From assembly GCA_001821935.1 (NCBI GenBank), contig MHOU01000002.1:23484-58773 (forward strand): 35,290 nucleotides of DNA. The letters run 5' to 3'. Of the stretch, positions 2,851 to 3,957 are shown in pieces. This DNA comes from Candidatus Staskawiczbacteria bacterium RIFCSPHIGHO2_02_FULL_43_16. Its GTDB lineage: Bacteria; Patescibacteriota; Minisyncoccia; Minisyncoccales; Staskawiczbacteraceae. The notes below the pieces were generated by a model. The model was not told the DNA's origin. It worked only from the letters and a program-made list of their open reading frames with translations, and searched no databases. The position numbers were made by a program, and so were the translations under genes. How positions within the stretch are numbered: the first letter of the stretch is position 1; every line of letters starts with the position of its first letter.

Positions 2851-2901
2851 GTGCTCTTCACAACATCGCGCCCTGGAGGAATAGTACCTCGGCGGTCTCA
2901 T

Positions 2902-3175
2902 ATTTAGCCCCGTGCAATCCGGGGGAGATGTGACCCCATGTGGTAACACGTGGAGGAAAAATTCCTGAACATGCTGGAAACCCATAAAGCTTTTTTCACT
3001 ACAACATGGCCCGCAAGGGCGAGTGTGAAAGTTTGAAAAGAAAAAAGATTTGGCAATCAGCAGCCAAGCTTCGAAAAGTTCGGAGAAGGTTCAGAGACTA
3101 TAATAGGAATTACCAATTCACGCGAATTGGTAAATGGTATAGTCCATTCCTTTTAGAAATAAAAGGTAGCAAAAG
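2902..3175 (+). ncRNA. Group I self-splicing intron in tRNA-fMet
   Basis: A complete group I core folds by eye. P1 pairs exon TCAT (2898-2901) with GTGA (2930-2933), giving the required U-G wobble at the 5' splice site. P2 is CCATGTG-GTAA-CACGTGG (2936-2953, GNRA loop). P3 is 2960-2967 with 3104-3111 (8 bp). P4 is 2972-2976 with 3058-3062. An extended P5 has a GCCC-GCAA-GGGC tip. P6 includes 3069-3075 with 3079-3085. P7 is GACTATA (3096-3102) with TATAGTC (3138-3144), inside the conserved R and S elements (GTTCAGAGACTA, TATAGTCC). P8 is 3111-3119 with 3124-3132, and P9 is CCTTTT/AAAAGG. The intron ends in G3175 as expected. It encodes no protein. Group I introns at anticodon loops are known from bacterial tRNAs. 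Confidence 0.9.
2908..2924 (+). repeat. T-arm copy within the intron P1 extension
   Basis: CCCCGTGCAATCCGGGG (2908-2924) differs by one base from the T arm of the host tRNA, CCCCGTGCAATTCGGGG (3187-3203). It forms the same 5-bp stem and 7-nt loop, including the odd G at the position equivalent to 55, and lies in the intron just beyond the 5' splice site. Confidence 0.85.
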
Positions 3176-3207
3176 AAGCCGCAGGTCCCCGTGCAATTCG
3201 GGGGGGC

Positions 3208-3232
3208 GCAACATGAATGTTGCACTATTTTT
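3208..3232 (+). terminator. Possible terminator after tRNA-fMet
   Basis: GCAACA-TGAA-TGTTGC (3208-3223) overlaps the tRNA 3' end and is followed by ACTATTTTT. The stem is short, so this is a weak call. Confidence 0.4.
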
Positions 3233-3279: not shown

Positions 3280-3957
3280 ATGGCAAAATTTAAAGAAAAA
3301 ATCAAAGCAATAGAGCTTCGCAAGAAAGGCAATAGTATTGGAGAGATTGCGCAAGAAATTGGTGTTTCAAAAAGTATCGTAAGCAAGTGGTGTAGGGATA
3401 TCGCTCTTACAAAAACACAAATAGGGAATCTTCATGAAAAAATGAAGATAGGTAGCTATAAGGGTAGAATGAATTTTCTAGAAAAAATTAGAAAAATAAG
3501 AAAAGATGAAACTGCTAGGCTGGGGGAAGAGGGTAAAAGGGAAATCGGAAAAATTAGTAGAAGAGATCTTTTAGTTGGCGGCATTGCGCTTTATTGGGCC
3601 GAAGGCACAAAATCTCCGAATGCGGAAGAAACAAGTTTTTCAAATTCAAATCCCGGAATGATACTTTGGATACTAAGATGGTTTGAAGAAATATGCGGGG
3701 TTTCAAGTGATAGATTTATTATCCAGATTAGGATCAATAAAATCCACAGAAATAGGATAAAAGAAGTAGAAAGTTATTGGTCAAAATTGATCGGCATACC
3801 TTTCAACCAATTTACAAAAACGGTTTTAATCAAAGCTCAAGCAAAGAAAGTATATTCTAATAATAATCATTATGGCACTGTCAGGGTCAGGGTGAGAAGC
3901 GGAACTCAACTAAGAAGGAAGATAATTGGGTGGATTGAGGGTTTGGCGACGTTATAA
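3280..3957 (+). CDS. Putative LAGLIDADG-like homing endonuclease with N-terminal HTH
   Basis: This is a basic 225-residue protein. Residues 8-40 look like a helix-turn-helix (IELRKKGNSIGEIAQEIGVS, then KSIVSKWCRD). Around residues 103-116 is LLVGGIALYWAEG, which fits the single-motif LAGLIDADG helix pattern with an acidic residue before the last Gly; the rest alternates strands and helices as in that fold (FIIQIRIN, GTVRVRVRSGTQL). Single-motif members act as dimers. The gene lies outside the intron but directly after the split tRNA and before two more tRNAs, where a homing enzyme would be expected. It is flanked by direct repeats ACGTTATAAT (3239-3248, 3949-3958), suggesting insertion. Its AT-rich, AAA-rich codon use differs from neighbours. 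The endonuclease call rests on motif pattern and context only. Confidence 0.55.
   Translation: MAKFKEKIKAIELRKKGNSIGEIAQEIGVSKSIVSKWCRDIALTKTQIGNLHEKMKIGSYKGRMNFLEKIRKIRKDETARLGEEGKREIGKISRRDLLVGGIALYWAEGTKSPNAEETSFSNSNPGMILWILRWFEEICGVSSDRFIIQIRINKIHRNRIKEVESYWSKLIGIPFNQFTKTVLIKAQAKKVYSNNNHYGTVRVRVRSGTQLRRKIIGWIEGLATL

Follow-up and report, generated by a model that had tools for sequence, protein, structure and literature searches.

Group I introns of bacterial tRNA genes (RF00028), including those of cyanobacterial tRNA-fMet, are inserted in the anticodon loop and share a catalytic core, an internal guide sequence (IGS), a U-G pair at the 5' splice site, and a terminal G. The intron described here, from a window of 35,290 nucleotides (the whole stretch of DNA that was analysed) of Candidatus Staskawiczbacteria bacterium RIFCSPHIGHO2_02_FULL_43_16, likewise has these features, but differs from the described introns in that its P1 bears a T-loop hairpin whose sequence is a near copy of the host tRNA's T arm, and no such case was found in the open-access papers searched. 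The hairpin can also be compared with two other kinds of RNA. The T-loop hairpin of cobalamin riboswitches (RF00174 and RF01689) may have the identical 17-mer CCCCGTGCAATYCGGGG, which in those RNAs is part of the aptamer; no report of a T-loop motif in cobalamin riboswitches was found in open-access papers, which says little. The T-loop of the tRNA elbow and the elbow mimics share the T-loop sequence and stem length, whereas in the present intron the T arm alone is copied, without an acceptor or D arm.

The host gene encodes an initiator tRNA-fMet(CAU) (2867-3211) and is interrupted between U36 and A37 (Table 1). ARAGORN, run with introns allowed, and Rfam RF00028 concur on the gene and the intron, the Rfam match reaching 67.2 bits (E = 4e-15; gathering cut-off 50) over model positions 1-253 of 253, and the interruption of this start-codon tRNA is on these grounds a predicted self-splicing group I intron. 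At the 5' splice site U36 (2901) forms a wobble pair (U-G) with G2930 inside P1, and the intron-final G3175 lies directly 5' of A37 A38; a terminal G was required by the boundary search in the homologues and hence is not independent evidence there. Intron/core patterns and Rfam together gathered 42 homologous introns, each interrupting an initiator tRNA at this same position, among which exon and IGS covary (UCAU/GUGA versus CCAU/GUGG), the IGS changing from GUGA to GUGG to match initiator tRNAs that have C33 and not U33 (for example L165, L168, L180, L184, L196, and L197). The joined exons, CGCGCCCTGGAGGAATAGTACCTCGGCGGTCTCAT^AAGCCGCAGGTCCCCGTGCAATTCGGGGGGGCGCAA, fold into a cloverleaf of -33.9 kcal/mol and are identical in sequence to the intronless tRNA-fMet gene of the congener G009. 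As read from the spliced sequence, the CAU anticodon, the C1 x A72 mismatch, and A11:U24 are all present, the last two being as expected for a bacterial initiator tRNA, and the anticodon stem (29-31:39-41) has two G-C pairs and U31-G39 in place of the three consecutive G-C pairs of the initiator criterion. No second initiator tRNA was found among the tRNA regions fetched from the 740-kb genome.

Table 1. Features of the interrupted tRNA-fMet gene, in window coordinates.
Feature	Position	Strand	Basis
5' exon of tRNA-fMet, from C1 through the anticodon (CAU) base U36	2867-2901	+	ARAGORN with introns
D loop AATAGTA; A18 = 2883, G19 = 2884	2880-2886	+	
P1: exon UCAU and intron AUUU (2898-2905) with IGS AGAUGUGA (2926-2933)	2898-2933	+	Fold; covariation
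Group I intron, 274 nt, no internal ORF, terminal omega-G 3175	2902-3175	+	RF00028; cloverleaf and homologues for boundaries
T-arm-like hairpin capping P1, CCCCG-TGCAATC-CGGGG (G000, host genome)	2908-2924	+	Motif search; conserved with compensatory stem changes in 5/7 family introns
P2 hairpin with a GUAA loop, immediately following the IGS; its end is approximate	2934-2957	+	RF00028 alignment and fold
3' exon of tRNA-fMet, A37 to A73	3176-3211	+	ARAGORN; joined exons equal the intronless G009 homologue
Exon T arm CCCCG-TGCAATT-CGGGG; G55 = 3193	3187-3203	+	Motif search and ARAGORN

Several other elements were noted at or near this locus. The P8 of the intron (3110-3133) is the palindrome TTACCAATTCACGCGAATTGGTAA, a near copy of which occurs at a locus of G002 (L035) without a detected tRNA gene, and the arms of which recur in the P8 of the G019 intron; it is perhaps a small mobile palindrome. 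An ORF of 225 amino acids (3280-3957, + strand) with an N-terminal HTH (Pfam HTH_23/HTH_28) and an ALYWAEG motif is preceded by the inverted repeat AAACCAACGTTATA...TATAACGTTGGTTT and sits between the tRNA-fMet and tRNA-Met genes, which are adjacent to each other in some congeners. The genome has a second group I intron, in tRNA-Phe(GAA) (G000:C3:7874-8108, L006), the P1 of which is without a T-arm-like hairpin.

The initial annotation had reported a near-identical copy of the T arm within a P1 extension next to the 5' splice site, and both the copy and its position are borne out. The intron hairpin CCCCGTGCAATCCGGGG agrees with the exon T arm in 16 of 17 letters, the sole difference being C/T at T-loop position 60, and at fewer than three mismatches the motif occurs in only two places in the 740-kb genome, namely these two. 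Folding predicts a 5-bp hairpin atop P1 with pair probabilities of ∼0.96-0.98, and the hairpin is likewise predicted for all five mimic-bearing 5' segments when folded alone, its probability being only ∼0.4 in the fold of the G003 precursor. A random G+C-rich hairpin of 5 bp and 7 nt reaches at least 16/17 identity to the T arm with a probability of ∼2e-6, and this, together with conservation in the family, led to the rejection of a chance match. When the T-loop is assumed to be selected and the stem random, at least 16/17 is reached in ∼0.4% and at least 14/17 in ∼4.6% of cases. Strand swapping between mimic and T arm has a predicted probability of no more than 0.04, so a folding trap by strand exchange was rejected and the suggested competition in folding found no positive evidence. 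A full tRNA-like element at P1 was also rejected, the bases 3' of the mimic not pairing with the acceptor strand.

The loop had also been called unusual, a description that did not hold, as TGCAATT is the ordinary initiator T loop in most relatives and its G55 is matched by A18 in 30 of 30 cases. Among the 42 intron-bearing initiator tRNAs, 30 combine A18 G19 with G55 C56 and 12 combine G18 G19 with U55 C56, with none mixed, and the A18/G55 combination is also found in tRNA-Cys, tRNA-Tyr, and tRNA-Thr(UGU) of the host genome. Position 18-55 of tRNA is usually called universally conserved. From these sequence patterns A18/G55 may represent an alternative 18-55 elbow contact, of which no report was found in open-access papers, although this says little.

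Among relatives, a T-loop hairpin sits on P1 in five of the seven introns of the host's family (f1), which takes in named Staskawiczbacteria, and in none of the 35 introns outside it, where P1 loops are short or carry unrelated inserts. In addition to the host genome, the hairpin is present in G003 (ACCCG-CGTAATT-CGGGT), G008 (GCCCG-TGTAATT-CGGGC), G019 (CCTCG-TGCGATT-CGAGG, plus one G-C), and G024 (GCCCCG-TGTAATT-GGGGC, a 16-nt hairpin with one base fewer), and two homologues from named Candidatus Staskawiczbacteria, L041 and L058, agree with the G008 and G024 genes in their exons and at the ends of the intron, which marks the host as a Staskawiczbacteria-like member of the Patescibacteria. 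The two remaining family members have other caps, GGCC-AAA-GGCC in G016 and a short unrelated hairpin in G020. Elsewhere, no convincing case was found in 380 genomes sampled across the phylum, the one extra hit, in G847, not appearing to be the same P1. Unrelated P1 extensions beside an unchanged T arm had been named as the sign of coincidence, and that pattern was seen in part, in G016, G020, and all 35 outgroup introns, most of which have the same T loop, but the five hairpin-bearing introns rule out coincidence for the family. In an intron tree built without P1, the seven f1 introns group together (84/94), with mimic-bearing G008 branching first and G016 and G020 nested within the family; within f1 the branches have moderate support, and G019 sits on a long one. 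The simplest history that this tree suggests is one gain and two losses.

The stem and loop have been kept in a manner consistent with a conserved fold. In the four ungapped hairpins (G024 was left out of the pair counts, MAFFT having misplaced its one-base deletion), 20 of 20 stem cells are paired, two of the five pairs are changed on both sides (pair 1 C-G/A-U/G-C; pair 3 C-G/U-A), and all six stem substitutions in G003, G008, and G019 fall within three compensated pairs. The observed covariation score was reached by 10 of 500 control shuffles, and the chance that three pairs of changes would all be compensated is ∼4e-4 by a rough hand estimate (two changes among ten positions, 2/27 each). 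Mean pairwise identity is 0.74 for the hairpin, 0.63 for P2, 0.61 for P5 with its extension, and 0.30 for P8, so that conservation of the hairpin exceeds that of P2, the P5 region, and P8 but falls short of that of the catalytic core. All five loops follow the T-loop rules YGYRATY, with variation confined to positions 54 (Y), 56 (Y), 57 (R), and 60 (Y), transitions only, and with G55, A58, and T59 invariant; this constraint is estimated from few independent changes in five sequences related by descent. With respect to the T-loop signature (5-nt core, closing G-C, U54/A58, and purine 57), position 54 is C in G003 and the closing G-C is present in four of five (G024 has no C61), while the remaining sequence signature is that of a putative T-loop. 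Because the hairpin is common to most relatives in the family and its shape is kept while its letters change, the comparative evidence marks it as a true structural component, at the level of the family, of an intron whose kind is known, its origin likely being unusual.

As for that origin, the mimics agree with their own T arms in 16, 11, 14, and 14 of 17 letters (16 in the host genome and 11-14 in G003, G008, and G019), so near-perfect identity is peculiar to the host genome, and the mimics of the family cluster around CCCCGTGYAATTCGGGG, the commonest f1 T arm, which favors copying. An exact search of the genome collection for the 17-mer gave 62 matches, 8 of them inside cobalamin or AdoCbl-II riboswitches, and since T-loop hairpins can reach the same 17 letters independently, as those riboswitches and the random stems above illustrate, copying is preferred rather than proven. 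The mimic thus probably originated as a T-arm copy, and convergence to a T-loop without copying is a possible alternative origin, the riboswitch 17-mers indicating that such convergence happens.

The most probable account, held with modest confidence, is that the hairpin serves as a structural extension of P1 in the tRNA-fMet group I intron, and that this extension was copied once, has been kept for its fold, and is helpful but replaceable. The copy would have entered the P1 loop a single time, in or near the ancestor of the family, its most likely source being the T arm encoded ∼280 nt further downstream within the host gene itself. It is proposed that the hairpin was retained because a T-loop hairpin would fold fast and rigidly, closing the 5'-splice-site helix and insulating it from the surrounding G+C-rich tRNA strands, so that the cap would help P1 to form and to stay apart from them. 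The state of the tRNA part of the precursor is relevant here because pairing of the exons in the anticodon stem, as Zaug et al. (1993, cited in PMC3984707) reportedly described, matters for the splicing of a cyanobacterial pre-tRNA. Two relatives carry different short caps at this position, so the hairpin would be useful but open to replacement, and its two losses indicate that it is not required; its fold appears to have been maintained, and its identity to the exon T arm not.

It is possible, though fairly unlikely, that the hairpin is a neutral relic, a T arm copied into a permissive P1 loop and drifting without function, as might be expected from P1 loops that accept unrelated inserts (L141 and L164) and from its loss or replacement in G016 and G020; against such drift stand the confinement of the six stem substitutions of G003, G008, and G019 to compensated pairs and a conservation exceeding that of P2, P5, and P8. 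A doubtful alternative is that the T-loop serves as a docking module in the unspliced, perhaps nascent, precursor, where it would temporarily take the role of the T arm by binding either the D loop of the 5' tRNA half or an intron-internal receptor. T-loops often dock (PMC4810234), all five mimic loops have G at the position equivalent to 55, the partner of the host A18, and Y at 56 opposite G19, and all mimic-bearing hosts have A18 G19. However, formation of the anticodon stem would turn P1 away from the D loop, position 56 is U in three of the five mimics, the D loops are unchanged where the mimic was lost, and no covariation backs docking. No intron feature divides mimic-bearing from mimic-less introns, and the comparison of the two sets yielded no receptor for the loop; the P5 extension was rejected in this role because it is present, with CUACA or CGACA, whether or not an intron has the mimic. 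The more specific proposal, that before splicing the P1-borne T-loop docks on the 5'-half D loop in the A18/G55 manner and forms a provisional elbow, which would guide the folding of the precursor and later give way to the true T arm, seems improbable.

Recruitment to the precursor of a protein that binds or modifies T arms (the m5U54 enzyme, RNase P, IF2, or another), as the initial annotation had envisaged, is quite improbable; T-loop enzymes can act on other RNAs with a T-loop (PMC7912444), but the mimic is not followed by an acceptor-like strand, G003 has C at residue 54, pseudouridylation is impossible at G55, the mimic can be lost without harm to the lineage, and there is no candidate protein. 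Ongoing gene conversion as the cause of the likeness between mimic and exon T arm, for which the 16/17 identity in the host genome might speak, was rejected as highly improbable because the mimic does not track the host T arm, the G003, G008, and G019 mimics being no closer to their own T arms than to the commonest family T arm CCCCGTGCAATTCGGGG and the T stems of G003 and G019 having changed without the mimic changing in step; of the suggested gene conversion or partial duplication at intron insertion, an initial T-arm duplication is plausible and gene conversion is not supported.

Under the preferred reading of a copied P1 extension, the intron seemingly adopted a structural module of the RNA that hosts it, and the fold of this module was kept through the drift of its sequence. 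Should the hairpin prove to matter for splicing, it would link tRNA architecture to intron folding, and the family would offer a simple test system of seven introns, of which five have the module and two lack it.
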